A stretch of DNA of 31,111 nt from positions 1 to 31,111 of the IMG/VR virus record IMGVR_UViG_3300024262_000159. One strand, 5' to 3'. How positions within the stretch are numbered: the first letter of the stretch is position 1; the number at the start of each line of letters is the position of its first letter. This DNA is from a virus. Below the pieces are notes generated by a model. It searched no databases. It was not told the origin of the DNA and was given only the letters and a program-made list of their open reading frames with translations. Positions 2,042 to 29,071 of this stretch are shown one piece after another. A program made the translations under genes and the position numbers.

Positions 2042-2440
2042 TTACTCCTCCGGGCTGAGTAATGACCCGAGGCCTAAACCAGCTGCGCCCCCAGCTGCGC
2101 CGCCACCAATACCGCCCAATAGCTCTCGGAGTTTGTTTCGCTTTAGTGCTGCTTCTGACACTCCCTCTGCTCCAGACAGCAGGTCGCCCAGAAATTGTTT
2201 CTTGTAAGCCTTCCCACTAGTAAGTAGTTCCGGGAGGTAATGCACGCCGGCACCAGCTGCGCCGCCGGAAAGTGCTCCTTGAAACGCAGACCCCAAGTCG
2301 CCGCCAGCTATGCCGCTTAAGATTCCGCCGCCTGCTGCACCTGCGCCCATGTACTTTGCGAGCGGGCTGATAGCTTCTTTTGTAAGCCCTGCGTCGATCA
2401 TCGCCTGCTTCACACCTGCTTCGTAAGCTTGTTTGATCAT
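2042..2440 (-). CDS. Leader-tagged small glycine-zipper protein
   Basis: 132 residues. Residues 1-19 are the leader (MIKQAYEAGVKQAMIDAGL), followed by TKEA. Two glycine/alanine-zipper segments follow: about residues 32-66 (GAGAAGGGILSGIAGG and on) and about 108-128 (LLGGIGGGAAGGAAGLGLG). Between them lies a short charged helix (KRNKLRELL). The protein is small, tagged and probably membrane-interacting, like known phage ejection or pilot proteins in general character, but I cannot assign a family. The ATG overlaps the RNA polymerase stop by four bases (ATGA), and GTGGAG precedes it by about 9 bases, so translation is probably coupled to the polymerase gene. Confidence 0.75.
   Translation of the reverse strand: MIKQAYEAGVKQAMIDAGLTKEAISPLAKYMGAGAAGGGILSGIAGGDLGSAFQGALSGGAAGAGVHYLPELLTSGKAYKKQFLGDLLSGAEGVSEAALKRNKLRELLGGIGGGAAGGAAGLGLGSLLSPEE
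2384..2440 (-). repeat. Shared N-terminal leader module, copy 3
   Basis: Encodes MIKQAYEAGVKQAMIDAGL at the start of the glycine-zipper gene. The only change from copy 2 is Leu2 to Ile. Confidence 0.9.
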
Positions 2441-5400
2441 TTCTTTATCTCCACTGGGGTTCCAAGAGTAATGTCACCGCGGTTGTACGCCGCCCACGCG
2501 TCAGCTTTGTTTGCAAAGGTCTGCTTCTTTCCAGTCTTTTTGGCTGTGGTGGCGGCGTACACCCCGGCGATGGCTTCTTGTTGCGGAGCGGCCTTGGAAA
2601 GCGTGAACTTCTCCTGGTCGCTCAGCAGCATGTTGGGCAGTGTCATCTTTCGGGCATCTTCTGCAGCTTCTTGGGTCGCTGGAAGGTGGATCTGGACAGC
2701 ATCGCCATCAAAGTCACCCGACATAATAGGTGCCAGCATCTCGTGAACCCGAATAGTCTTCCCAGGAACCATCTTCGGATACGCTGCCAGCATGTTGTAC
2801 CGGTACAGTGACGGAGCACGATTGACCAAAACAGGCCTTGTCCTGATTTCGTTGGTAAGCACGTTCAGGGCCACGGGTTGTCGGTCGTCAATCATCTTCC
2901 GCGCGTCCATTGCCTTGTACCCGCGCTGTACGAGACCCCGAGTGATGTGTGGACGGTACATACTCCAGGCCATGTCTTCAGGCAAACCAATCTCATCCAT
3001 GCCCAGTGTAGGGTCAGGAGCAATCGTACCGCGTCCTGACAAGTCCTGGCGCTTGGCTAAGAGCTTACTGTGAACAAACCCGTACTTGGGGCCAGAACCT
3101 GTGCCGGCCAGGCGGCTCAAGAACCCCTGGACTCCACGTGCTTTCAGCTGCGGGCTTACTGGGTCGGCGTCGCCATACAGTGCTCGCATGGAGTCGTACA
3201 GGTGCGCTCGTGCCTCACCCTGGACGGCAGTGGGCATGTCCTTGGACTTCTTAAGCATGTCGTTGGCTAGCATAGCGTCACGATATAGATAGTTGGCGTC
3301 GTTGATCTGCAGGTCACCCTGTTTTCCAGGAAGAATGGGGCGAAAAGACGGAGGCACCACCGGTACCTTTTTCACGATAAAAGCCGTTTCTGGTCGCACC
3401 TGGTTAGCGTTCAAGTTCCTGATGACCTTGAGTTTCTTGACAGCACTGTCCCGTGCGGTACCCTGGAGCTTCTTCATGCGCTCAAGGAGGCTATCCTCTT
3501 CTTTCTTCATGTCCAGCTTCGAAAGGCGTTTCTTGAATCCCGTGCCGCCTTCATCGCGCATCGTCTGGTCGAACTCGGACTGCTTCATCCCCAGGAGCCA
3601 CTTTACCGGCCGCTCCATAGTCGGGCTGACAATAGGCTCATGTAGGTCAAAGTGAGACCACTTAGTGCCGCTGGTGCCGCCGGTGATGACAGGGTCAAAC
3701 AAGCCGCCCTTCTCGGGACGCAGGTCTTTCGCGCGTACGAACAGCGGGTTACGCACCGTACCAGATGACATCTTAGTAGTGTCCAAGTCAGTAAGCGGCC
3801 CCACAGATATCTGGTTGGCGTTCTTGTCCATTTTGACGCCGGCACCAGCAAGCATGGCACCAAACTTGTCGTACGCAAACGTGGTCTTCAGCGGCGGTAG
3901 TGGCAGTCCTAGCTGGTACGCGCGCCACCACTCATCGTTCTTCTGGCTCTTGAGTGCCGCGGACTCTCGCAGAATGTTCCTGGAGTCGTGGGCCAGGAGC
4001 GCGTTGAATACAAGGCGCCCTACGCTTTTGGCGCCGGTCGGGCCGCCTGAAGACGGCTGCTGATTCACATCATAGTCTTCTACGCCACGCGCTGAAAAGT
4101 TGGTGTCCGTTGATTTGAACAGCTTGTACATGTAACGCGGTCCCACTAGAACTTTGGGGATCTTCTTGCCGGATACCGGGTCAAAGATAGTCTCTGTGTC
4201 CTTCAGGCCGTTTTTCTTGAGCTCGTCCTTCACCCACTGAACGTTGTTCTTCCCGGAAAAGTTATCCACCAGGATGGGGTTGCCAGTCTTACGGGCTACG
4301 CGTCCAAGGGCTGCTTCGAGTACCTGACCTGGGTTGATGCGCGACACAACGGTTGCTGGGGAGATGGCAACGTCTATGGGGTTTCCGTTTTCGTCCTGAA
4401 TCATTTGGTTGTCAGGGACGATAGCCGACACGACACCCTTGTCTCCCATTCTCCCACTTATTTTATCTCCGATACCAAGAGGCGCGTTCATTTTTACAGT
4501 CAGGCGAATCTTACGCCCAGACTTAGCAACGTCGACTACTTCTCCTGGGTAGTCTTTGTCCCAGGTAGTACCAGCATCCCTGAACGGCTTGACTAGGCTT
4601 TTGTGGAGCTTGCCCAGCATCTGTGCTTCGGGGGACAGCTCAGTCTTTCGCACCGATGCGATGAGCAGGTCACCTTTGTTTACTTGCATGCCCGGCTTGA
4701 TAATGCCGCCGTCGTCAAGTTTGGCGTACATGTCTTTTGAATATTTGCTCCCAAAGTAAGACTTGTGTTTGGACGTGTCGGCGGCCATGTTGGCGTCGAG
4801 GTCTTCGCCTATTCTGTACATATGCTGAGAGGTTAGCTTTTTTGCCGCACCTTCAGAAACAACGATAGCGTCGTTGGAATTCATCCCACGCATGGGGATG
4901 TAGGCCACGTTCAGGTTTGTGCCCAGGGTCAGAGAACCATCCTTGGTATACGCCGAATCAGCGAGTGTCTGGCCAGCTTTGACCTCGTCGCCAGCCTTCA
5001 CTAGCAAGTTGTGGTGCAGAAACGTCTTGGACGCCAGCGGAAAATTCTCGTGGAAAGGAACTTTGAGGCTATCTCCGACTGCCGCAGTTTTGTCGTTGGG
5101 ACGAATGTGAATGTACCCATCTCGAATAGAGCTGACTACGCCGCTGACAGGAGCTCTTGGAGAAACAAGAGCACCTATCTCGCGCTCCATCGAATCAGAC
5201 CTGCCACCCATGTGGCCCTGGACCTGGATAAGGGGCGTCTCACTGTGAACAAGGGGGAGCGCCTGGGTATTCATCTTAGACGCCATGGTTTGCCGGTTCC
5301 CATCGATGCTGTCCATGAATGGAATGAGGTTCGACGCTGGACTGTACATGGACGCCATATTTGGAATCTTGTAGCGGACCTGAGACGCCGGCATTGACTG

Positions 5401-6801
5401 GATCGCGTTGTTGTGGATTACGTCTACTTTGCCCCGGGCGCCCGTAACGTGCTGCTGCGGAAAAGCAATGGCGTTGCTGACCGCTTTTTCTACGGGTACC
5501 CACGCAAGGCGTTTGTGTTTTGTATCCCAGAGTCTAGTAAACAAACTGCCGTCCTCACCGCGACCAGTGTACAGAGTCGTACGCAGATCGATACCAGATC
5601 TGCTGCTTTCTGGAGTTCGGATGGGATCCAACACAGCGGCATGGGACGTGTGCAGCCTGCGCGCTTCCATAGGGATGGCGCGCTCAGAAGAGATCCCGCC
5701 CTCCCCCAGAGAGGTCACGCGTACAGATGAGTCCAGGATCTCTACGGGGTTTATCTGATCTGGGCTAGAAGACAGTGCTGACGTTGATAAAAAGCTTCTG
5801 ACAGATTTGGTAAACGGAGACGCCGGGACTGCTTCCAGCTGCTGCTTCCCGCGCTCAATCTTAGACAGCACTTTGTTCTTCAGACCGCGAGCTTCGAGCT
5901 TGATACGTTCTGCGATGAAGTCATCAGACGACTTTAGGTGTTTGTAGGCCAGGTCGTCGCGCTCGTCGAAATCGACGTCATCTTTGTAAGCACGAAGTAA
6001 CTTATCAGACGCTGACAACATCGCTTCGGGGGTAACGCTGCTAAAGCGCTTGCCCAGCGTGCGTTCTGTGACATGGGGATCCATGGACGTGCCGGCGTAC
6101 ACGTTTTTTATGGCAGCTACGCGGTCCTCGTTGTCTACGCGGTACGCAGGCCGGATCATTTTATTGTACAGGCGGCTTATGTGCCTGTCCGCACTGCTAC
6201 CGAATGCACGGCGGTTTACGTCAACAAGCTCTGGTTTCCAGTACTTAGACATTTCTTTGTCAGAAACGCCTAGCTTGTTCAGTACAGGATAAAGAGGTAT
6301 CTTGGTCGTACCGTACTCTAAATTGAACAGACCCTTTTCCTGGTCCATGCTCATCTTGAAGTTGTCGCCCTTGGACAGGTTGAATGCAGCTTCCAGGGCC
6401 TCGTTCTTTCGTTTGCGCGTGTATATCCCTGGTTTCATGCGCAGCTGGTTACTGACGTTGTACGAGTTGCCGTTGATGACAAACGTATGGTGACCAGTAA
6501 AGTACGGCAGTTGCAGGAGGTTGAACTTGGGGAGTTCCTGAACGACCTTACCAGTGGAATTATCCTTCAAGACCAGCGTTCCCCGCACCGGTTCAGAAAG
6601 AGTCCTGGCGTGCAACAGAGCATTCTTGTGCGCCACGGGGCTCACGTCGATAGGGTGTACTTTTACGTTTTTGACGTCAACTGTGAACCGGTTACCTACG
6701 AATGGGAACGCATTCTTTATACCTTCGACGGCTTTGTTTCTGATCTGTTCTCGTTTGACGTCTGCCTCGACAAAGACTGGCTCTGTTTTCATAGCACTCA
6801 T
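2437..6801 (-). CDS. Phage multisubunit-type RNA polymerase: beta fused to N-terminal part of beta'
   Basis: 1454 residues, DNA-dependent RNA polymerase. Beta hallmarks in order: FVINGNSYNVSNQLRMKPG (107-125), DPIRTPESSRSG (392-403, counterpart of PIETPEGxNIG), NVAYIPMRGMNSNDAIVVSE (631-650), the double-psi barrel with both catalytic-site lysines in GDKISGRMGDKGVVS (778-792), SRINPGQVLE (820-829) and the PSSGGPTGAKSVGRL clamp (916-930). Beta' then begins: LRPEKGGLFDP (1027-1037), VPVVPPSFRPILPG (1146-1159), KRQDLSGRG (1250-1258), PVLVNRAPSLYR (1323-1334) and the Mg-binding DFDGD (1363-1367). The chain stops 87 residues later. The beta' zinc ribbon is missing, and the bridge helix and trigger loop would have to come from another gene. 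In E. coli beta and beta' are separate; phiKZ-like phages split them into several chains. The gene lies among virion genes, so a packaged polymerase is possible. The start is ATG 6801 (ATG 6792 is also possible); neither has a good ribosome-binding site. Confidence 0.97.
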   Translation of the reverse strand: MSAMKTEPVFVEADVKREQIRNKAVEGIKNAFPFVGNRFTVDVKNVKVHPIDVSPVAHKNALLHARTLSEPVRGTLVLKDNSTGKVVQELPKFNLLQLPYFTGHHTFVINGNSYNVSNQLRMKPGIYTRKRKNEALEAAFNLSKGDNFKMSMDQEKGLFNLEYGTTKIPLYPVLNKLGVSDKEMSKYWKPELVDVNRRAFGSSADRHISRLYNKMIRPAYRVDNEDRVAAIKNVYAGTSMDPHVTERTLGKRFSSVTPEAMLSASDKLLRAYKDDVDFDERDDLAYKHLKSSDDFIAERIKLEARGLKNKVLSKIERGKQQLEAVPASPFTKSVRSFLSTSALSSSPDQINPVEILDSSVRVTSLGEGGISSERAIPMEARRLHTSHAAVLDPIRTPESSRSGIDLRTTLYTGRGEDGSLFTRLWDTKHKRLAWVPVEKAVSNAIAFPQQHVTGARGKVDVIHNNAIQSMPASQVRYKIPNMASMYSPASNLIPFMDSIDGNRQTMASKMNTQALPLVHSETPLIQVQGHMGGRSDSMEREIGALVSPRAPVSGVVSSIRDGYIHIRPNDKTAAVGDSLKVPFHENFPLASKTFLHHNLLVKAGDEVKAGQTLADSAYTKDGSLTLGTNLNVAYIPMRGMNSNDAIVVSEGAAKKLTSQHMYRIGEDLDANMAADTSKHKSYFGSKYSKDMYAKLDDGGIIKPGMQVNKGDLLIASVRKTELSPEAQMLGKLHKSLVKPFRDAGTTWDKDYPGEVVDVAKSGRKIRLTVKMNAPLGIGDKISGRMGDKGVVSAIVPDNQMIQDENGNPIDVAISPATVVSRINPGQVLEAALGRVARKTGNPILVDNFSGKNNVQWVKDELKKNGLKDTETIFDPVSGKKIPKVLVGPRYMYKLFKSTDTNFSARGVEDYDVNQQPSSGGPTGAKSVGRLVFNALLAHDSRNILRESAALKSQKNDEWWRAYQLGLPLPPLKTTFAYDKFGAMLAGAGVKMDKNANQISVGPLTDLDTTKMSSGTVRNPLFVRAKDLRPEKGGLFDPVITGGTSGTKWSHFDLHEPIVSPTMERPVKWLLGMKQSEFDQTMRDEGGTGFKKRLSKLDMKKEEDSLLERMKKLQGTARDSAVKKLKVIRNLNANQVRPETAFIVKKVPVVPPSFRPILPGKQGDLQINDANYLYRDAMLANDMLKKSKDMPTAVQGEARAHLYDSMRALYGDADPVSPQLKARGVQGFLSRLAGTGSGPKYGFVHSKLLAKRQDLSGRGTIAPDPTLGMDEIGLPEDMAWSMYRPHITRGLVQRGYKAMDARKMIDDRQPVALNVLTNEIRTRPVLVNRAPSLYRYNMLAAYPKMVPGKTIRVHEMLAPIMSGDFDGDAVQIHLPATQEAAEDARKMTLPNMLLSDQEKFTLSKAAPQQEAIAGVYAATTAKKTGKKQTFANKADAWAAYNRGDITLGTPVEIKK

Positions 6802-7912: not shown

Positions 7913-8304
7913 TTTTCTGGTGCTCCTTTTTTCGGTTTTTCGTCCGGGACGAGGCACTTAACAGATACCATCGTGCGCCCGTCTTGGAGGTGCTGCCATT
8001 CTTCGCGGGCCATGAGCCACTTCTTTTGCAGACAGTTGTTCACCATATTTTCCAGCATCTCGCACTGCTCGGGGTCAGACAGGTCGAATAGCCCGTAAGA
8101 GGCACGGAACTTCTCGCGCATACCAAACATGTTTCGACCAGTCTTACGGTCAATGCTGGTTTGAACCTCTTCATCAGAGATTTCTACGTGCTTACCCGGA
8201 TGGATAGGCGGCATTTCTTGGTCGGTCTGCATGTGTTCCATCAGCTTGGAAAAGTCGGGGTCGTGGCCGAACAGTTCTTGCATCGGATCTCTTGCGTCGC
8301 TCAC
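7909..8304 (-). CDS. Hypothetical small protein between portal and 7532 gene
   Basis: 131 residues starting at GTG 8304, which overlaps the portal stop as GTGA; the stop overlaps the next ATG the same way. Such coupling usually means fixed stoichiometry with the neighbours. The protein is acidic at the N-terminus (ELFGHDPDFSKLMEHMQTDQEMPP), has a helical middle (SDPEQCEMLENMVNNCLQKKWLMAREEWQHL) and ends in a basic KPKKGAPEK tail. There is no recognised domain, signal peptide or membrane segment. Context suggests a head or packaging accessory protein. Confidence 0.7.
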   Translation of the reverse strand: MSDARDPMQELFGHDPDFSKLMEHMQTDQEMPPIHPGKHVEISDEEVQTSIDRKTGRNMFGMREKFRASYGLFDLSDPEQCEMLENMVNNCLQKKWLMAREEWQHLQDGRTMVSVKCLVPDEKPKKGAPEK

Positions 8305-10037
8305 ATCGCACCGCCTTGTTGTTGTTGTGCACGCATATCTTGTCGCATCATGGCCTCATTCTGCGTTTGCAACTCTTCCATGCGCTGGATAACTACGGAG
8401 TACATGACGAAGTCTTCCATCTGGAGGGAGTGCAGGTAACTCTTGCGCGTACCTTCGTCCATGGACATTATCTGCTGCGCAATCTGGTCAGCCTGCGCGA
8501 CTACAGCTTGCTGGTCGTAGCCCTGCGGTTGTTCCGTCTGGGTAGACGCGCGTGCTCGGTCAGCTAGGTTTTGCTGCATTTGCTGCATATCTTGGTCCAC
8601 TTCCCACTGGAACTTCGCTTCGTCCAGCGTCTCCTGCTTTCGAAGCTCGCGCTCCTTGATGATGTCGCGCCCAAACATATTGGCGATGGAAGTAGTCGAC
8701 AGCAGCTGGTTCCCGGAAGCTTGGTTAGCCTGGAGAAGAGCCATCTTTTGCTGGACATCGTCAACAAGCTTGAACGGTTCGAGGTCTAAACGAATCTTTT
8801 TCCACCCCAAGAATTCGGAACACTTGTTGGTAACCCACTGCGCCTGATCAATGAGTTGCGTGGTGTAGTTCAGTAGCTGATTCTCCAGCATCCTGAGAGT
8901 TACGCTAGACCCAGTAGCAGAGAGTCCGCCGTAGATGAACTCGCGAGGGATCCCCATCGCTGCGATGATGCTGTCCTCGGCCTCTTTGATTTCTCCAGTG
9001 ACCATGAGCGCTCGGCCTTGGCCGCCTACGTTGGTCACACCAACAGGAATCGGAGAAAACATAAGGTGCAGTGGGTCTTTTCGCCACGCCTTCAAATTCA
9101 TCTTGGTTTCGTTGATCCAGTTGGACAGGGAGATTGTAATCGTCGGATCCGAATTCTGCGTTGGTTGCGTTGGGTGCATCACCCGAAAAGGTACGATGTG
9201 CTCAAGGGAGATGGCTTCGTTTGCCTTACGAAGAACTGCCGTGTAAAAGAACTGTTTCAGCGTGGACGTAAGGGGCGGGAAGCCCCAGCGAGAATCGATA
9301 CCCGCGGGCGCGTCTGCCTTCATGTGATACAGCTTGTCGTGACCGAATTTGAATATTTTGCGCTCTGCGATGCAGTCAATGAACGCAAGGGGTGTCGTTG
9401 CTAACAGATGTTTGTTGCCGGAGCGCAGTCTGTCTCGAAAGTCAGTCGGGATTCTGTAGAAGTACTCCGATTCTCCGGTGATGGGGTTCTGTTCGATTTC
9501 AATTTGCTTCGGGTCCCAGCGGATAACGTTGATCCCGCGCGGGTGGCGTAGCTTTTCGTCAACAACCTTGGCCGAAACCTCTTTGTTGCAATTGCTGCAG
9601 CGCATAAGGAAGTTGGCGCTCTTGTTTTTGATCTTGAACTTGTACGTAGCGTGCCTAATACTCATGCGTGTTTTGCATGAGGGGCACTCTAAGAACCGTT
9701 TGAATGGGAAGTACACAGAAACGAAGCTGTTCCCGTACACGTGCCGGTCGATGCCAGTCTTGGTCAGAACAGTCTTTAGTTGGATAGTATTCTCGAGTAA
9801 GTTCTTGTACTTTTGTTTGAGCTTTGGGCTGTCTGTCTCGAAAATTAGATCTGTTACAGGGTAGACAGCAAACTTGTTCAGCGCTGCAAAGATCTGCGGG
9901 CTGTTGTAGTACAAGTATTCACAGTACGTGAACAAAGACTTGAGCTGTCGGGGCACAAACGTAGTGAGGTAGTCAAACAGAGGATTCGGGTGCTGAACTC
10001 CGCGGTTTGCGTAGTCGGTATCTGTACTTAGGGGCAT
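8301..10037 (-). CDS. Portal protein with internal zinc ribbon
   Basis: 578 residues. Portal proteins form the dodecameric ring through which terminase pumps DNA into the prohead. Portal-like features are the N-terminal NSPQIFAALNKFAVYPVTDLIF (45-66), GIDRHVYGNSFVSVYFPF (95-112), MKADAPAGIDSRWGFPPL in the middle, IKEAEDSIIAAMGIPREFIYGG and the long helical stem-like part. The C-terminus is Gln/Met-rich (MQQMQQNLAD to QQQQGGAM). An insertion at 118-150 holds CPSC and CSNC, a four-Cys zinc ribbon that is unusual in portals. Start: ATG 10037 with AGGAG 7 bases upstream, 29 bases after a -10 element. It is the first gene of its unit and is translationally coupled to the next. The lack of other portal candidates and the presence of TerL in the same genome support the call. 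Confidence 0.85.
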   Translation of the reverse strand: MPLSTDTDYANRGVQHPNPLFDYLTTFVPRQLKSLFTYCEYLYYNSPQIFAALNKFAVYPVTDLIFETDSPKLKQKYKNLLENTIQLKTVLTKTGIDRHVYGNSFVSVYFPFKRFLECPSCKTRMSIRHATYKFKIKNKSANFLMRCSNCNKEVSAKVVDEKLRHPRGINVIRWDPKQIEIEQNPITGESEYFYRIPTDFRDRLRSGNKHLLATTPLAFIDCIAERKIFKFGHDKLYHMKADAPAGIDSRWGFPPLTSTLKQFFYTAVLRKANEAISLEHIVPFRVMHPTQPTQNSDPTITISLSNWINETKMNLKAWRKDPLHLMFSPIPVGVTNVGGQGRALMVTGEIKEAEDSIIAAMGIPREFIYGGLSATGSSVTLRMLENQLLNYTTQLIDQAQWVTNKCSEFLGWKKIRLDLEPFKLVDDVQQKMALLQANQASGNQLLSTTSIANMFGRDIIKERELRKQETLDEAKFQWEVDQDMQQMQQNLADRARASTQTEQPQGYDQQAVVAQADQIAQQIMSMDEGTRKSYLHSLQMEDFVMYSVVIQRMEELQTQNEAMMRQDMRAQQQQGGAM

Positions 10038-10065
10038 GCGTACGCTCCTGACGAAATGCTAAAAA

Positions 10066-10094
10066 ATAATAGGGTACCCACACCCGCAGTTCAA
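10066..10094 (-). promoter_or_regulatory. Sigma70-like promoter for the portal operon
   Basis: Read on the minus strand: -35 TTGAAC (10094-10089), 17-base spacer, -10 TATTAT (10071-10066). The spacer ends in CCC directly before the -10, as in other promoters of this window. The portal ATG is 29 bases downstream with a good ribosome-binding site. Confidence 0.6.
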
Positions 10095-10118
10095 GGGATT
10101 TGTCTTGCGGGGAATACG

Positions 10119-10131
10119 TTTACCGCGTAAA
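10119..10131. promoter_or_regulatory. Dyad operator TTTACCGCGTAAA, site 1
   Basis: A 13-bp dyad (TTTAC-CGC-GTAAA) immediately before the ribosome-binding site of the helicase gene. It is identical to the site at 15336 and resembles the KorB operator TTTAGCSGCTAAA. It probably controls the 10144 operon or serves as a ParB-type binding site. Confidence 0.5.
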
Positions 10132-10143
10132 AAAGGAGAAACC

Positions 10144-12030
10144 ATGGCTGACACAGCTGAGCCCGTAGTATGTAACGTCACACACTGGAGGGGGACTCCC
10201 GTGTTTGCGCTCCCTTCTTTAGGGCAGTATCTCAATCGCATCTATGGCGCCACTTTCATCCAGGGTAAGGGATTTTGGCTATTTCCAGCATACTACCCCG
10301 TTTTTGAGAACGTTGTCCACGATATTGATCTGGTGGTCCCGGGGGTACGGTACACCGACAAAGCGCTTGAACACATCGCTAGCATGCGTGAGCTGCATGA
10401 GCAAGTAAACAACGGTGAGGTGGTCTACGGGGATGACTTTGAGTTTGTTACGTCACCGTACGCGCACCAGGAGGAGGCTCTAAAGTTCGCACTGGCGCTC
10501 CCGCGGTGTGGCATTTTTTACGACATGGGTCTCGGCAAAACCAAGATCGTAGTGGACCTCATCCGGCACGAACAGAAGAAAACTCTGGTGTTGTCCCCGT
10601 CAGTGGGCGTCGACGTTTGGTTGCGCGAAAGCGAGGTCCATTCTGGAGGAGCACTGAATGCAGTAGCTCTTAAGGGCACGGCTAAAAAGAGAGCGAAGAT
10701 GCTCGATGAACTCTCTAGAGACGCCGACATTATAATTGTTAGCTACGACACGGCCAAGCGGGAACACGACAACCTGGTAGACAAGTTCCCCTACGAAATG
10801 ATCGTAGCCGACGAAAGCCACTTCTTACGTGGCCATAAATCAGCGCGTACCAAGTGTGCCCAGTCGTTAGCGAGCCGGGCCCATCGGAGGGTGATCCTTT
10901 CGGGGACGCCGTCTCTGGGTAACCCACTTCATCTGTGGGGGCAGCTGGCTTTCTTGGCCCCGTACCTACCGGCTAAGGATTTTTGGACGTTTAGAAAAAG
11001 GTACTGCATTACGGGGGAATCGAGCAACTACCGACTCCCGGCAAAGGTACGCAAAAACATGATTGTAGGATTCAAGAACCTGGACCACTTGAATACCAAA
11101 GTACAAAAGATGGCTGTTAGACGAAAAAAGGAAGATTGCTTGGATCTCCCTGAACGTACGATACAAGACATCCATTTTGATATCGTTGGAGACCAGCGCG
11201 GTACGTACAACAAGTTCGTGGATAGCTTATCAGTCGAACTTGAAAACGGTGAGGCGTACGAGGTGGCCAACGCAGCGGTGTCCATCCAGAAACTTCTCCA
11301 AGTTTTGAGTGGCTTCTTTATTGTGCCCCCGCCGAATATCTGTGACGGGTGCAAGCACATTGCTAAGTGTGTTGACGATGGTGTGAAGCCGTACACGAAG
11401 AGATGCCACGTCCAGAAGAAAGCCCCCGACACTAAGATTCAGGACTTGAAGTCCAACCCAAAAATGTTTGCTCTGGAAGAGCAGCTCGACGGTATTTTGG
11501 CGGAGGACAGAAACAAGTGCATCGTCTGGGGGTGGTTTCGGCACGAACTGGATATGATCGAAGCCATGCTTAAGAAAAAAGACATAGGGTATCTCAGAAT
11601 AGACGGCTCGAACAGCACTAAGGGCTCCGAGTATTCTCAGAAATTCAACGAAGACCCGACAATCAAAGTGTGGTTGGCGCAGGTCAGTACGGGTGTCGCG
11701 CTCACACTAACGGCCGCGAGCTACATGATTTACTACAACCTGCCATATGACCTGGGTTCGTATCAACAAGCCATGGACCGTAACTACCGCATTGGGCAGG
11801 AACGTCCTGTGTTCGTTTACCGGTTGGTATGTCGGGATAGCGTCCTGGAGTATGTAGCTGCATCGCTAAGCCAGAAGAAAAACATTGCAGACACACTTAC
11901 GGATGTCATCAACTGCATCACATGTAAGTACGGGCTCATTTGCATGGCTAACGGGGTACAGCCTTTCCAGGAGGGTTGCCGGTACAAAACCAAAACAGCA
12001 CGTGTTCGCATCAAACCCAAAAAACTGTGA
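10144..12030 (+). CDS. SNF2-family (superfamily 2) helicase/translocase with two Cys4 clusters
   Basis: 628 residues. ATP-driven translocase on duplex DNA. Motifs: Q-like YAHQEEAL (106-113), Walker A DMGLGKT (127-133), DESH box (223-226), SGTP motif III (253-256), then the second RecA lobe with IVWGWFRHELDMIE, LRIDGSN, VSTGVALTLTAASYMIYYNLPYDLGSYQQAMDRNYRIGQ (about 514-551), the SNF2 motifs V and VI. Two Cys clusters with the same spacing C-x2-C-x5-C-x11-C lie between the lobes (C400, 403, 409, 421) and at the C-terminus (C591, 594, 600, 612); both contain GVxP. They could bind zinc or Fe-S. The start is ATG 10144, with AAGGAG 6 bases upstream. It is the first gene of the plus-strand operon and likely acts in replication, recombination or fork remodelling. 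Confidence 0.93.
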   Translation: MADTAEPVVCNVTHWRGTPVFALPSLGQYLNRIYGATFIQGKGFWLFPAYYPVFENVVHDIDLVVPGVRYTDKALEHIASMRELHEQVNNGEVVYGDDFEFVTSPYAHQEEALKFALALPRCGIFYDMGLGKTKIVVDLIRHEQKKTLVLSPSVGVDVWLRESEVHSGGALNAVALKGTAKKRAKMLDELSRDADIIIVSYDTAKREHDNLVDKFPYEMIVADESHFLRGHKSARTKCAQSLASRAHRRVILSGTPSLGNPLHLWGQLAFLAPYLPAKDFWTFRKRYCITGESSNYRLPAKVRKNMIVGFKNLDHLNTKVQKMAVRRKKEDCLDLPERTIQDIHFDIVGDQRGTYNKFVDSLSVELENGEAYEVANAAVSIQKLLQVLSGFFIVPPPNICDGCKHIAKCVDDGVKPYTKRCHVQKKAPDTKIQDLKSNPKMFALEEQLDGILAEDRNKCIVWGWFRHELDMIEAMLKKKDIGYLRIDGSNSTKGSEYSQKFNEDPTIKVWLAQVSTGVALTLTAASYMIYYNLPYDLGSYQQAMDRNYRIGQERPVFVYRLVCRDSVLEYVAASLSQKKNIADTLTDVINCITCKYGLICMANGVQPFQEGCRYKTKTARVRIKPKKL

Positions 12031-15349: not shown

Positions 15350-16192
15350 TCAATCCGAGAAAGCAAGGTCCTTTACGCACTCTACGTTTAGCTTTTTGCT
15401 GAACTTCCTCTGTAGCGACGCGAGCGAGTCCATTTTTATCTGGCGCACGCGTTCAGAGCTAACACCCAAAACGCCGGCTATCTGTCGCAACGACCATGGC
15501 TCATCGATGTACCCATAGTACGCGCGCAACACGAAGCCTTCTTTGACGCCAAGTGTTTTCAACGCAGCGTTGAGGAACCCTCTTGTCTCAGCATCGATTG
15601 CGCTCTGGTCGGCTTTTGGTTTTTCATGAGGGGGCGGTACGTTTTCAATCGAAGGAAAACAAAAATGGTCTACACGTAGGCGCTCAATCTGTTCCTTTGA
15701 AAGTTCTGTAGCGGTGCACAGCTCGTCATCGTCTGCCTCGCGCCCACTACGCTCTGCTTCGGACTTGACGCGATTGACTTTTCGGACCGCCTTCTGGCGC
15801 CACCTGGGCATACTGACTAACTCAGAGTCGTATAACTCTTCTCGGATGTACAGCTTAATGTAGTACGTGGCGTAAGACAGGAAGCGGGTTTTTCTATTTG
15901 GGTCGTAGCGGGTGAGTGCGTTGAGCACACCGAGGTTCCCGGCAGAAATCAGATCTTTCACTCTGTCCGGGTCTCGCGAGTACTTCTGCGCTAGTTTGAC
16001 TACCTGGCGCAGGCAGTTGTGCACCAGTGCGTCGCGTGCGTCGATGTCGTTGGTTTTCTTGTACTGCTTGTAGAGTTTGCGCTCTAATTGGGGAGTAAGT
16101 ATTTTAGTCCGACCGACTTCTTTGTAGTAACAGTGGAAATTCTTGTCGGTAGCCAAAGTATTGTGCACCCGTGCAGCCGAAGAAGTTGTCAA
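15350..16192 (-). CDS. Sigma70-family RNA polymerase sigma factor
   Basis: 280 residues from TTG 16192. Region 2 is clear (counting from the start used): ALVHNCLRQVVKLAQKYSRDPDRVKDLISAGNLGVLNALTRYDPNRKTRFLSYATYYIKLYIREEL at about 55-120, including the 2.2-2.4 core. Region 3 follows (MPRWRQKAVRKVNRVKSEAE). Region 4 has the HTH SLRQIAGVLGVSSERVRQIKMDSLASLQRK (about 234-263), which reads the -35. The protein is near full sigma length apart from region 1.1. The TTG has GGGGAGGAG six bases upstream. The ATG at 16228, twelve codons earlier, has no ribosome-binding site, but a 292-residue product cannot be excluded. It probably directs host or phage-encoded polymerase to phage promoters. Divergent from the 16417 gene and convergent with the ParB-like gene. 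Confidence 0.92.
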   Translation of the reverse strand: MTTSSAARVHNTLATDKNFHCYYKEVGRTKILTPQLERKLYKQYKKTNDIDARDALVHNCLRQVVKLAQKYSRDPDRVKDLISAGNLGVLNALTRYDPNRKTRFLSYATYYIKLYIREELYDSELVSMPRWRQKAVRKVNRVKSEAERSGREADDDELCTATELSKEQIERLRVDHFCFPSIENVPPPHEKPKADQSAIDAETRGFLNAALKTLGVKEGFVLRAYYGYIDEPWSLRQIAGVLGVSSERVRQIKMDSLASLQRKFSKKLNVECVKDLAFSD

Positions 16193-16271
16193 TGGTTCTC
16201 CTCCCCATATCTTGCGCCATGATGCCATTGTGGCACAACATGTAGTAGTGTCGCAAGCGTTTTATCCAATC

Positions 16272-21100: not shown

Positions 21101-21427
21101 GTGTTCTGGCAGAAAATCATCAGCGGGGTACTCCAGAGATCCAATACGTACCGTGGGGCGCAGTTCCCACTACGTTTGAAAGCAGTTGCTGACGGAGACC
21201 CGCGTATCATTCCTAAAGAAGTAGTCGGTAAGGCGTCGTTTATGCAGAAGTACATCTGGCCGTTGGTAGGGGCTGCAATCGGACCTGAAGAAATCAGCGT
21301 GCTGGACGTAAGCAAGACGCTTGATATCAAGTCTGGTAGCGGAGACGCCGTCGTCGATTACAATCAAGAACAGCATGCCATTCTGGACGACATTCCTGAT
21401 GAATTACTAGAAGGAGAGGTCGAGTGA
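18113..21427 (+). CDS. Primase-ATPase fusion (DnaG-type zinc and TOPRIM domains plus P-loop helicase-like domain)
   Basis: 1104 residues. Makes RNA primers and probably unwinds the fork. N-terminal zinc-binding domain GCCPYHAEQKPSF (49-61) with CFGSC (72-76): C51, H54, C72 and C76. TOPRIM catalytic core: LEGEMDVVAL (282-291), PDNDNSGRS (331-339) and KDPD (363-366), the three acidic motifs of DnaG. A middle region of unknown fold (about 380-690) follows. The ATPase has Walker A GETHSGKT (704-711) and Walker B LLLDEFED (753-760), then RSIRGTAGG with candidate arginine fingers. The ATPase does not look like the DnaB/T7 gp4 RecA type and is closer in style to AAA+/SF3-like or VirE-type domains; I am unsure. 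GTG start overlaps the nuclease stop, with AGAGGA upstream. The stop overlaps the polymerase start. Confidence 0.9.
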   Translation: MTVKKKFQDLPPKKLREIWGSVTPADWLALLQEHKPDNDWVLSGNTIKGCCPYHAEQKPSFVISLDKRQAKCFGSCDKYIWNPIQFYADISASSYSHALQDMRKRFNLRVSTAYAQNAQKVEENDRLKSALFKAMHLEFTEALTQDNKPEYQYLHKSNFFQWIRQRQLPEETAHKWPLGVVPTRQRLMARLDEIGAKDLKAEASAYLGSYLGVSGGGCEGWAVFPYYTSPTTIGRLKMRKPKSGKDVPYYFIDDPYAEHFGWFGLNTFAHLRGKLQHHPLYVLEGEMDVVALVAYQESEGRDDVFSIATSGKGEFDVTPAFEFGFDHIRAIPDNDNSGRSWAVSVMNENERVDRVFRWSDPQIKDPDEAFRAWGFEITYDRITDETNYPRNYEWCSEQLEQDLLGIDSTDVRRRNELAARYGQSLHDDSERAAFLLEAVQQDGIDKELVIQDMSISEDSPEAFALRLEKQLGLEYYFMHEAQSGTMPIARAWSNRKSVMRSFQLSSPAAILSTLELDVGNIEAYIRAHLGEPDFLNYRMGPKGMPMHLSPTAKSQQVMHICGQATRSLASKATPREKLKEVGQGVHYIDDFEGHPTLFIVNGTKFFKGVAEGGKMTYIQLDSPISDDFIFRLAPDLWSNNIKSVEDINSGIDHDPKYLFNAVLEMMRIGWRFKHHELEAQFMAADIMYTAIASVFNHMVMTDLTGETHSGKTSLMQLMGGNEFGAYRLCDAAIFIDDFTAAAVRQLMSGHCLRLLLDEFEDTDSMAARTDKKAGAVRDILNMIRSLVSGARSIRGTAGGEHQDFHIKFPLTVGGIYTMREARDLNRFVHIRTHHMEGFNDPIVPIREKYSVSDIAKIRRGLTLCWLPRIPELLQAYQEIQDEFADNATLPPGTYTRLKDNLMPAAAIMKIVGHDYKTFMTEFCKIKMDELLEQGVTKESSNIWSNILHTPVSMSHVESGRTGVSAVAKIIGNPNLNYLLNDADLGAYYLKEQKWLVVFWQKIISGVLQRSNTYRGAQFPLRLKAVADGDPRIIPKEVVGKASFMQKYIWPLVGAAIGPEEISVLDVSKTLDIKSGSGDAVVDYNQEQHAILDDIPDELLEGEVE

Positions 21428-24258
21428 AGAAGAAAGGGATTTCGTGTAAAAGCTGCCCCGCCTTTCACGAGCCTTGTCTGGACCACGGGATAGGAGACAA
21501 CCCGGCGCACATCATAGCTGTCGGAGTATCACCGTCCAATTTTTCTATCGGTGAAGATAAGGCGTTCTACGGGCACGCAGGCCGCATGTTTACCAAGCTC
21601 ATGGGGATCATAACGCGGCGCCAGCCCAACCAAAAAGAGGAGATCAAAGTATACAAGACGTACGCCGTGTTAGTCGGCGCACACAAACCTACGATTGAAC
21701 ATGTGCAGAACTGCCAGTCTCACCTGAGACGTGAGCTGGATAAAATACGCGGGATCGAGGGGCGCGAGCCAGTGCTCGTTCCCCTCGGCCCGCTAGCTTT
21801 GAAAGCTGTTGGTATTCAAGCAAAGAAAATCACAGACGTAGTGGGGCGCGTGATGTCCACTACTATACCGACGATGGGTGGTTCACGAAAATTGGTGGTC
21901 GTCCCATGCTTGTCGATGGACCACGTGATAGCCAAACCTGGTACTGCAGCTGTTGCGCTGTCTGCTTTGTCAAAGGCAGTGAGCATCGCATGTGGCGAAC
22001 GTGCTGATGAGAACGCTCCGCTAGCCACGCTTACCAAGGACTACATCTACCCTAAGACAGCCGCAGAGGTAGGCGAACTAGTAGATATGATACTGGGGTA
22101 CAAGGATCAGGGTAATGTGTCTTTCCACAAGAGCGCAGAGTTCTGGCCGATATCGGTAGACACCGAAACCAACACTCTGTACCCGTACTACCACGAAAAC
22201 CCGAAGACGCTCATGTTATCTGTGGCATGGAACGCCGGCAAAGCTGCGACTATTTTGCTAGACCACCCTGACGCAGGGTACGACGACGAGGGTGCGGCTG
22301 CGTGGGAACACGTGCGCAGACTTCTTCAGTCCCCCAAACCCAAGGTATTCCACAACTGGAAGTTCGACCACAAGTTCTTGGAGCTGACTAATGGCATCCA
22401 AGTAAACAACGTCAAGTGGGATACTATGCTGGGGGAGCACTACTTAGAGGAAGACAAGCGGGGGCTGTATTCGTTAAAGCAACTTACCCCCATGTATGCA
22501 CCCGGATACGGTGGGTACGACGATGCGTTGCAGGAGATCTTTCGTGGCGCAAAGAAGGACCCTGAGTTCCTGCATCTGCCTGACGACCAGATACTTACCC
22601 TGGCAACACCTGAAGGACGCGACCCAGAGCAGTGGGAAAAACTGCGGGAGTGGATAGTAATACGCAATAAGCTTCGTAAGATCTCGGCTAAGTTGCGTTC
22701 AGTTATGGAACAGTCGGAGTTTGCTGAGTCGGGTGTGCAGATAAAGGAGTTGCGCGGGGAGCTAAAGATCAAAAAACTCGTGAAGCCAAAAAAGGAGAAG
22801 GGAGCTGACGGAGGGTTCGAAAGTATTCCTCTCGATGTCATTCTGCAGTACGCCGCAGTCGACGCTGACGTTACTTGGGTTATTTTCACCAAGCAGCTCC
22901 GGCGTCTATCTATCACCAAGCTGCGGGAAGAAGGGTCTGAGGTTATGAAGTCCTTGTACCTCCCGGCCAGTCGCACGTTGTCAAGGATGGAGTACCGAGG
23001 GTTTCCGGTAGACCAGGAGCACTTGGCTAACGTAACCGTCGGCGTAGAAGAACGTTTGAGCGCAGCAAAGCAGGTTCTTGCAGATCGGTTCGACCCCAAT
23101 CTGAACGTCAATGCGGCGAAGCAGGTGTCGGACTACATGCAGGCGCTAAACTTTGAGGCGCTACCGGGAGTTGATCCTGGGAGTACAGGCAAGGACGTGC
23201 TGGCTAAGTACAAGGAGCACTACCCTGAAGACGATAACCGGCACGTTTTCTGTGACAAGGTGTTGGAGTATCGGGAGTGCCATAAGACTCTCAATACGTA
23301 CCTCAAGAACATCCGTAAGTTTTCTGCCCACGACGGAAAGATTCATTGCACGTTCCATCTAAATGGGACCGCAACTGGCAGACTTTCGAGTGCCAACCCC
23401 AACCTACAAAATTTGCCGCCTATCACATGCAGACGTGTGCGCAACGGGGAGGTAGAGTTCGAGGGGTTCAACATCAAGAAGCTGTTTGTTCCGTCGCGGC
23501 CAGGGTATTCCATAGCCAACTGCGACATCTCCGGTGCCGAGCTTCGTGTTGTCACGGCCTACTCCGGTGATGAAGACATGATCGCTGCTTTGACCGCAGG
23601 GCTAGACCTTCATAGCGTCACTACGTCTAAGGTCTACGGTATCCCGTACGAAGAAGTGATGCGGCTCAAGGAGCTACACGACCCCGACATAACGAAGAAG
23701 AGGTTGAAATGTAAGCGCGTTGTGTTCGGGGCCCTGTATGGTGCCGGCGCGTACAAGCTCGCTGAGCAGGTGAACTGCAGCTACGAAGAAGCTCAGGAGT
23801 TGCAGCGGTTCTTGTTTGAGGCGTACCCAAAACTGCGTGAGTACATCGACAACACACACGCAGAGTTGCAGCGAGACAACCAACGTGTGCAAACCTTGTT
23901 TGGGCGCGTGCGAAGGTTCAAGCTGGCGGCCCTGACAGAACGTCACGCCGCTGAGGCCCGCCGTGAGGCGGTGAACTTCAAGATCCAGTCTACATCAAGT
24001 GACCTGGTACTGAGTCAGTTGTGTGAGATGGACGATCATCTCCACGAACTCGACGCCAATCTCTTAGTCACAGTCCACGACAGCTACGTGTTAGAGATCC
24101 CGACCGAGAACATTCCGAAGCTCTGGAACTTCTTCGACTACTGGATTGTAGAACGCATCAAAGAACGTTTCCCGTGGTTGCCCGTCCCGTTTGCGTATGA
24201 TCTCGAAGCGGGTCCCAGTTACGGAGAACTGAAGGAGGTTTCTAGAGATGCCGCATAA
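21424..24258 (+). CDS. DNA polymerase I family replicase with N-terminal uracil-DNA-glycosylase-like domain
   Basis: 944 residues. Residues 1-190 match the family 4/5 UDG fold: C8, C11, C18 and C97 for an Fe-S cluster, VGVSPSNFSIGEDKAFYGHAGRMF (33-56) and PVLVPLGPLALKAVG (116-130). The catalytic Glu position of GEAPG is V35 and the HPS motif is replaced near S164, so glycosylase activity is doubtful. 3'-5' exonuclease: D246/E248 (SVDTETN), N311/D315 (HNWKFDHKF), Y476/D480 (YAAVDAD), so the proofreading residues are intact. Polymerase: motif A D701-E706 (CDISGAELR), motif B R760, K764, F768, Y772 (RLKCKRVVFGALYG), motif C H885-D886 (VTVHDS). A basic insert (about 380-465) separates Exo II from Exo III. 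GTG start overlapping the primase stop, with AAGGAGAGG upstream. Likely the phage replicative polymerase. Confidence 0.95.
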   Translation: MKKKGISCKSCPAFHEPCLDHGIGDNPAHIIAVGVSPSNFSIGEDKAFYGHAGRMFTKLMGIITRRQPNQKEEIKVYKTYAVLVGAHKPTIEHVQNCQSHLRRELDKIRGIEGREPVLVPLGPLALKAVGIQAKKITDVVGRVMSTTIPTMGGSRKLVVVPCLSMDHVIAKPGTAAVALSALSKAVSIACGERADENAPLATLTKDYIYPKTAAEVGELVDMILGYKDQGNVSFHKSAEFWPISVDTETNTLYPYYHENPKTLMLSVAWNAGKAATILLDHPDAGYDDEGAAAWEHVRRLLQSPKPKVFHNWKFDHKFLELTNGIQVNNVKWDTMLGEHYLEEDKRGLYSLKQLTPMYAPGYGGYDDALQEIFRGAKKDPEFLHLPDDQILTLATPEGRDPEQWEKLREWIVIRNKLRKISAKLRSVMEQSEFAESGVQIKELRGELKIKKLVKPKKEKGADGGFESIPLDVILQYAAVDADVTWVIFTKQLRRLSITKLREEGSEVMKSLYLPASRTLSRMEYRGFPVDQEHLANVTVGVEERLSAAKQVLADRFDPNLNVNAAKQVSDYMQALNFEALPGVDPGSTGKDVLAKYKEHYPEDDNRHVFCDKVLEYRECHKTLNTYLKNIRKFSAHDGKIHCTFHLNGTATGRLSSANPNLQNLPPITCRRVRNGEVEFEGFNIKKLFVPSRPGYSIANCDISGAELRVVTAYSGDEDMIAALTAGLDLHSVTTSKVYGIPYEEVMRLKELHDPDITKKRLKCKRVVFGALYGAGAYKLAEQVNCSYEEAQELQRFLFEAYPKLREYIDNTHAELQRDNQRVQTLFGRVRRFKLAALTERHAAEARREAVNFKIQSTSSDLVLSQLCEMDDHLHELDANLLVTVHDSYVLEIPTENIPKLWNFFDYWIVERIKERFPWLPVPFAYDLEAGPSYGELKEVSRDAA

Positions 24259-28729: not shown

Positions 28730-29071
28730 TTAGCTGTTATGCCCAAGAGGAGGCAGCCCCGGCTTTCCACCTACGCCGGTAAAAGGTTTGTTGGCAGCGT
28801 CGATATACCCCTTGCCTGACGTACCGACTGCTCCGGAATACCCGCCGCCGGTGGCTGCAGGCGCGCTGGCTGCCAGTGCTGACTCAGTGTTGTTCATCGG
28901 AACGTTGGGGCTGTATCCTGCAGCGTATCGGTTACCTTCGGCCATAGACGCCTGTCGGTTTGCCTGTATGCCTTGCTGCACGGTCGGATCCATTGTACCG
29001 GCCGACTCCTTCAACAACCCAGCGTCGATCATCGCCCGGCGCACGCCAGCTTCGTAGGCTTGTTTGAGCAT
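28730..29071 (-). CDS. Leader-tagged small low-complexity protein
   Basis: 113 residues. Residues 1-19 are the shared leader in a slightly altered form (MLKQAYEAGVRRAMIDAGL), followed by LKES. The rest is Gly/Ala/Ser/Asn/Pro-rich and probably disordered (QGIQANRQASMAEGNRYAAGYSPN, ASAPAATGGGYSGAVGTSGKGY). There is no enzyme motif. It carries the tag 26 kb from the other three copies, showing the module is not confined to one cluster. It starts two bases after the upstream stop and has only a weak ribosome-binding site, so it depends on coupling. Confidence 0.75.
   Translation of the reverse strand: MLKQAYEAGVRRAMIDAGLLKESAGTMDPTVQQGIQANRQASMAEGNRYAAGYSPNVPMNNTESALAASAPAATGGGYSGAVGTSGKGYIDAANKPFTGVGGKPGLPPLGHNS
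29015..29071 (-). repeat. Shared N-terminal leader module, copy 4
   Basis: Encodes MLKQAYEAGVRRAMIDAGL. The only amino-acid changes from copy 2 are Lys11-Gln12 to Arg-Arg; most other bases match. Confidence 0.9.

Follow-up and report, generated by a model that had tools for sequence, protein, structure and literature searches.

The polymerase gene of the window (the whole 31,111-nt stretch of viral DNA analysed here) encodes, in one chain, an RNA polymerase beta subunit joined to the N-terminal part of beta' (beta'N), and as judged from its motifs and alignments both halves of the catalytic centre lie in this chain. In relatives with the same kind of chain, the enzyme is not complete with it alone: a separate gene encodes the remaining part of beta' (beta'C). 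We consider it likely that the gene represents the large subunit of a virion-packaged, injected, sigma-directed, alpha-less phage RNA polymerase with a two-polypeptide core. The features on which the argument draws are as follows.

2437..6801, minus strand: beta + beta'N single chain, 1454 aa (ORF, Pfam, PDB profile search, full-length homologues)
3832..6801, minus strand: beta part, residues 1 to ~990 (Rpb2_3, Rpb2_6; alignment with Salmonella and Enterococcus beta; PDB matches)
4426..4470, minus strand: beta active-site loop GDKISGRMGDKGVVS, residues 778-792 (motif search)
3772..3924, minus strand: beta-to-beta' junction, residues ~960-1010 (alignments of 26 relatives and of bacteria)
2440..3804, minus strand: beta'N part, residues ~1000-1454 (Rpb1_1, Rpb1_2, bacterial alignment, AlphaFold2 and Foldseek)
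2701..2721, minus strand: beta' catalytic motif SGDFDGD, residues 1361-1367 (motif search, bacterial alignment)
8301..10037, minus strand: portal protein, 31% identity to gp204 of Salmonella phage Arash (E=9e-109); it neighbours the polymerase region on the upstream side, as does the portal gene in Arash
15350..16228, minus strand: phage sigma-70-like factor with regions 2, 4 and a weak 3 (Pfam, PHROGs; 27% to Arash gp196)

An earlier note on this DNA had claimed a single-chain fusion with collinear beta and beta' hallmarks, and the chain bears this out: the frame opens with ATG, has no internal stop, and carries RpoB-type and then RpoC-type domains, both in Pfam (in the order Rpb2_2, a weak match; Rpb2_3; Rpb2_6, residues 594-919, E=3.1e-48; Rpb1_1; and Rpb1_2, residues 1314-1387, E=2.3e-21) and in PDB profiles. 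In the latter search the query was a profile of the window chain and three homologues (four sequences), of which positions 69-1004 matched beta chains (8gzg_C, E=7.5e-107) and positions 1012-1460 beta' chains (6wvj_D, E=3.7e-75), the top match being a cyanobacterial beta. The two signature motifs lie exactly where the note had placed them, and the residues that mark cellular-type multisubunit (double-psi-barrel) polymerases are retained in both, namely the beta loop lysines K780 and K788 and the beta' DxDxD triad D1363, D1365 and D1367; these catalytic residues are conserved across the clade to which the window belongs.

Beta passes into beta' through a conserved junction without a linker domain, as seen in the alignment of 26 relatives and in that with Salmonella and Enterococcus; the latter alignment also reveals that the beta' zinc-finger cysteines are absent from the window chain, and that the chain retains the beta' clamp-helix region, which in bacteria makes the main contact with sigma. 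The chain ends at the strand that corresponds to 'ARVKVRITE' in Salmonella beta', past the active-site barrel (the note had it end just after the active site, correctly); this is the position of the split between RpoC1 and RpoC2, and also the end of the N-terminal beta' polypeptide of phiKZ-type phages. Changes in the rifampicin pocket (Q513S, H526S and S531T, read from the alignment with bacteria) predict, and only predict, that the window polymerase would be resistant to rifampicin.

Structure prediction of the chain, which the earlier note had called for, gave the same assignment. AlphaFold2 models of residues 320-1454 (pLDDT 76.7) and 1000-1454 (pLDDT 82.7) found their best PDB matches, by Foldseek, in bacterial beta and in bacterial beta' or cyanobacterial gamma, with moderate TM-scores (0.45-0.50 on the query) and, in the second search, a high rmsd; the models thus support the fold assignment, but not details of the domain arrangement.

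Relatives were collected from phage collections and from IMG/VR, where three scans returned 158, 46 and 370 relatives (80, 46 and 80 of them kept). In four phage-collection records, those of Salmonella phage Arash and Vibrio phages D69, D148 and D181, the match covers 80% of the chain or more. Arash gp206, a full-length homologue with 36% identity to the window chain, and D69_0261 are single genes of ~1525 aa each, and the contig L207 of the cultured Desulfovibrio sp. An276 (NZ_NFJC01000017.1) has the same polymerase layout as the window. By its beta+beta'N chain, its full-length similarity and its position in the tree, the window belongs to this Arash-type clade of fused polymerases, its nearest kin being the metagenomic loci L015 (68% identity) and L022.

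The beta-beta'N join is common to the whole clade, within which three layouts can be distinguished (counts include near-copies). Layout A, that of the window, L015 and L022, consists of the beta+beta'N chain and a separate beta'C (79 loci, in 54 of which the same stretch also includes beta'C); in layout B a second break ~70 residues into beta'N yields three polypeptides (11 loci and 4 cut ones); and in layout C beta, beta'N and beta'C form one chain, mostly of ~2,000-2,160 aa (93 loci), whose consensus, read by eye, contains a bridge-helix-like motif, a trigger-loop-like motif and a late cluster of cysteines.

No beta'C was found within the 31-kb window, which extends only 2.4 kb beyond the downstream end of the polymerase gene; because the window is such a fragment, the pairing of its chain with beta'C is taken from relatives. 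Exactly one beta'C frame of ~600 aa is present in each of the 12 layout-A records of 86-198 kb, and it lies downstream of the polymerase by 1.6 kb in the close relative L091 and by 4.4 kb in L124; Arash gp216 and D69_0264 carry the corresponding domain PF04998. In four loci the beta'C gene is much longer, at 975-1397 aa (L014:15059-18391, L042:18489-22679, L119:15215-18427 and L122:6360-9284), and the extra part in L042 has AAA/kinase-like and DUF5661 matches. Each of the 16 long records, which may be incomplete, has exactly one beta gene; a sigma70_r2 domain occurs in 13 of them, with no sigma match in the other three, and the alpha family PF01193 was found in none of the 16 (search controls were positive in 13 of 14). 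In the window, the sigma-70-like factor is a candidate for the promoter-recognition partner.

The enzyme that we propose would have a core of two polypeptides, the beta-beta'N chain and a separate ~600-aa beta'C supplying the bridge helix and trigger loop. It would probably be packaged in the virion and then injected with the DNA, a phage sigma factor would probably direct it to phage promoters, and the covalent link between beta and beta' would probably take over alpha's task of keeping the two together, so that no alpha would be needed. For the phage of the window, we infer polymerase activity, pairing with beta'C, packaging, use of sigma and replacement of alpha: the presence of a clade polymerase in virions is known for Arash only. 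In the virion proteome of Arash, no protein of the purified particles was detected more often than gp206 (3516 spectra), and 1210 spectra were recorded for gp216, its beta'C, and 467 for the sigma factor gp10; the authors of that study relate the virion polymerase to early transcription or, alternatively, to carry-over from infection (PMC10585845). Divided by chain length, the counts come to ~2.3 spectra per residue for gp206 and a nearly equal ~2.0 for gp216, spectral counts being only roughly quantitative.

That carry-over alternative, together with the close similarity of the chain to bacterial beta, cyanobacterial included, would suit a two-polypeptide core that recruits host alpha (and omega) late in infection and is not injected; we regard this as unlikely, given that gp206 tops detection in purified particles (PMC10585845) and that phiKZ-type phage polymerases, of which one form is packaged, function without alpha or omega (PMC7598289). 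Clade phages may have a diverged alpha or use that of the host. It is very unlikely that the chain works alone as a compact polymerase ending just past its active site: bacterial RNA polymerases require the bridge helix and trigger loop, both located in beta'C, a single beta'C gene is kept in all of the 12 long layout-A relatives, and Arash virions hold both gp206 and gp216, even if both barrels lie within the chain and the window is without beta'C. Hardly credible is a mainly structural or internal virion protein that retains a polymerase fold, which could be read into the very high spectral counts in Arash virions (PMC10585845) and the adjacency of the polymerase gene to the portal, since the catalytic residues are conserved clade-wide and the same genomes keep a separate beta'C. 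Finally, the chance of an assembly chimera, frameshift or lost stop between separate beta and beta' genes is negligible, as the same chain with its conserved junction occurs in sequenced phage isolates, in the Desulfovibrio sp. An276 contig and in dozens of independent metagenomes.

The alpha-less two-polypeptide core thus remains our preferred reading, and the joined gene on which it builds holds throughout the clade. The earlier note would have given up the fusion had close relatives encoded beta and beta' separately, with a stop near residue 940-1020; none of the 196 clade loci classified (the window included, near-copies counted) does so, and separate genes were found in outgroups only. 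Apparent exceptions were rejected, being outgroups, Vibrio phage D181 with its intron, or the loci L161 and L185 with in-frame TGA codons. In D181, a group I intron (RF00028, 100.7 bits) and a homing-endonuclease ORF interrupt the polymerase gene (L003:9506-9786 and 9800-10417), the pieces of which are annotated as separate hypothetical proteins; the D69 gene is intact at this site. Single TGA codons stand in otherwise intact layout-C polymerases at L161:10433, 10997 and 12809 and at L185:12179, and these phages may decode TGA as an amino acid.

Inteins are a further kind of insertion in the gene. L015 and L022 have an intein-like insert of ~360 aa in the beta active-site loop, between residues 781 and 782 of the window numbering, which begins with Cys and ends GN|S (the window is without it); in L046 and L048, domains of inteins and homing endonucleases follow directly upon DFDGD, where intein-like inserts were also noted in L054 and L059. 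Insert domains were checked in L015, L020, L046 and L048 only, and a LAGLIDADG domain was found in L015. An intein as the cause of the layout-A break was considered and rejected: the inteins of L046 and L048 lie ~85 residues before the break, with no direct link to it.

In phylogenetic analysis, layouts A and B fall into a joint clade (SH-aLRT 99), inside which B is itself a clade (SH-aLRT 100). Rooted on bacteria, or on bacteria and other phages, three trees place A and B within C, with the layout-C sequence L040_C near A+B in the bacteria-rooted trees; this nesting in the bacteria-rooted trees suggests that full fusion came earlier and breakage later, but a separate clade for C is not rejected by AU tests (p=0.37 and p=0.23), and layout A may instead have come first. 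The break after the barrel occurs in a lineage whose sister lineages stay unbroken there. That phiKZ phages and cyanobacteria break beta' at the same point has been read as pointing to a cyanobacterial origin, although the break may also have arisen independently (PMC7598289); the clade favours independent appearance of the post-barrel break. With somewhat less than even confidence, we tentatively hypothesize an alpha-less, sigma-dependent clade of tailed phages in which the beta-beta' join replaces the alpha platform, and in which a one-chain enzyme would have been broken stepwise, after the active site (A, the window) and then inside beta'N (B), the RpoC1/RpoC2-like split being convergent and no mark of cyanobacterial descent.

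Among known polymerases, those of cyanobacteria and plastids (RpoB, RpoC1 or gamma, and RpoC2) have a beta' that ends at the same place as the window chain, but there RpoB and RpoC1 come from separate genes, and alpha is part of the enzyme. Helicobacter and Wolbachia have a full beta-beta' fusion, the beta C-terminus joined to the beta' N-terminus, and Helicobacter keeps alpha. The same order, with the whole of beta', is found in layout C in a much shorter chain, whereas the window chain stops at residue 1454. The one-chain polymerases of crAss-like phages and YonO also have both barrels in a single chain, but little of RpoB or RpoC is recognisable in them, unlike the strongly RpoB/RpoC-like window chain. 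Yersinia phage YerA41 and Cobetia phage Carin-5 also encode cellular-like beta and beta', and YerA41 beta' is split after the barrel as in the window chain; in both, however, beta is a separate gene, and both lie outside the clade in the tree.

PhiKZ-type jumbo phages likewise encode their own polymerases, with beta' split after the active-site barrel (PMC7598289), but their beta is split and they have two polymerase sets (virion and non-virion), whereas in the clade beta is whole and joined to beta'N, with one set per genome, and a sigma factor is usually present. The metagenomic mReC phages of Weinheimer & Aylward 2020 (PMC7481178), which are tailed phages, resemble the window in their clearly cellular-like beta and beta', but are described with both subunits, fusion being mentioned for crAssphage only; their filter demanded the beta' motif NADxDGD and beta and beta' of at least 800 aa each, and the SGDFDGD of the window does not pass it. 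The mReC phages may overlap with the fused-polymerase clade. Arash (OQ632216; PMC10585845) shares with the window a one-chain homologue, sigma factors and a portal neighbour, and also has its separate beta'C gene, but belongs to a different branch, adjacent to layout B. Its gp206 and gp216 are annotated as plain beta and beta', and the fusion is absent from the text of the paper; in a characterised phage the same protein was already present, under the bare label 'beta'.

The earlier note's view that this is a different topology is supported: a beta+beta'N chain or a three-layout clade is described in none of the open-licence papers searched (an unseen description is possible). The end point by itself is known from RpoC1/RpoC2 and from the phiKZ split site (PMC7598289); what is new is apparently the combination of a post-barrel beta' split with a beta-beta' fusion.

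Other genes of the window add observations of their own. A near-identical N-terminal peptide, M(L/I)KQAYEAGVKQAMIDAGL.KE, stands on different proteins (3-962, 959-2038, 2042-2440 and 28730-29071, all on the minus strand), and in L015 (15394-16523), L022, L091 and L124 similar leaders occur on genes that directly follow the polymerase; 30 of 27,070 ORFs bear the leader, against 0 of 8,000 shuffled ones. Our guess, by analogy with T4 internal proteins, is that it may be a head-targeting signal. The leader-bearing protein at 959-2038, just downstream of the polymerase, has an HD domain (PF01966); a domain of this kind also occurs in Bacillus jumbo phages, there fused to a subunit of a virion polymerase (PMC7598289). 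A family A DNA polymerase at 21424-24258 (plus strand) has an N-terminal uracil-DNA-glycosylase-like domain (PF03167).

Arash, the Vibrio phages and Desulfovibrio sp. An276 allow these proposals to be tested in culture, the An276 isolate being a possible host and laboratory system. The inteins and the group I intron within the gene make it a concrete case for the idea that polymerase genes are broken up by mobile elements. The layout, shared by a large and almost unstudied phage group, adds a form that stands between the cellular polymerase, fusions of the Helicobacter kind and the phiKZ enzymes with their many pieces, and allows fused, once-split and twice-split forms to be compared within one clade; it thereby bears on two questions raised for phage polymerases (PMC7598289), namely what keeps them together in the absence of alpha, and whether phiKZ phages and cyanobacteria have their beta' split site in common through shared descent.
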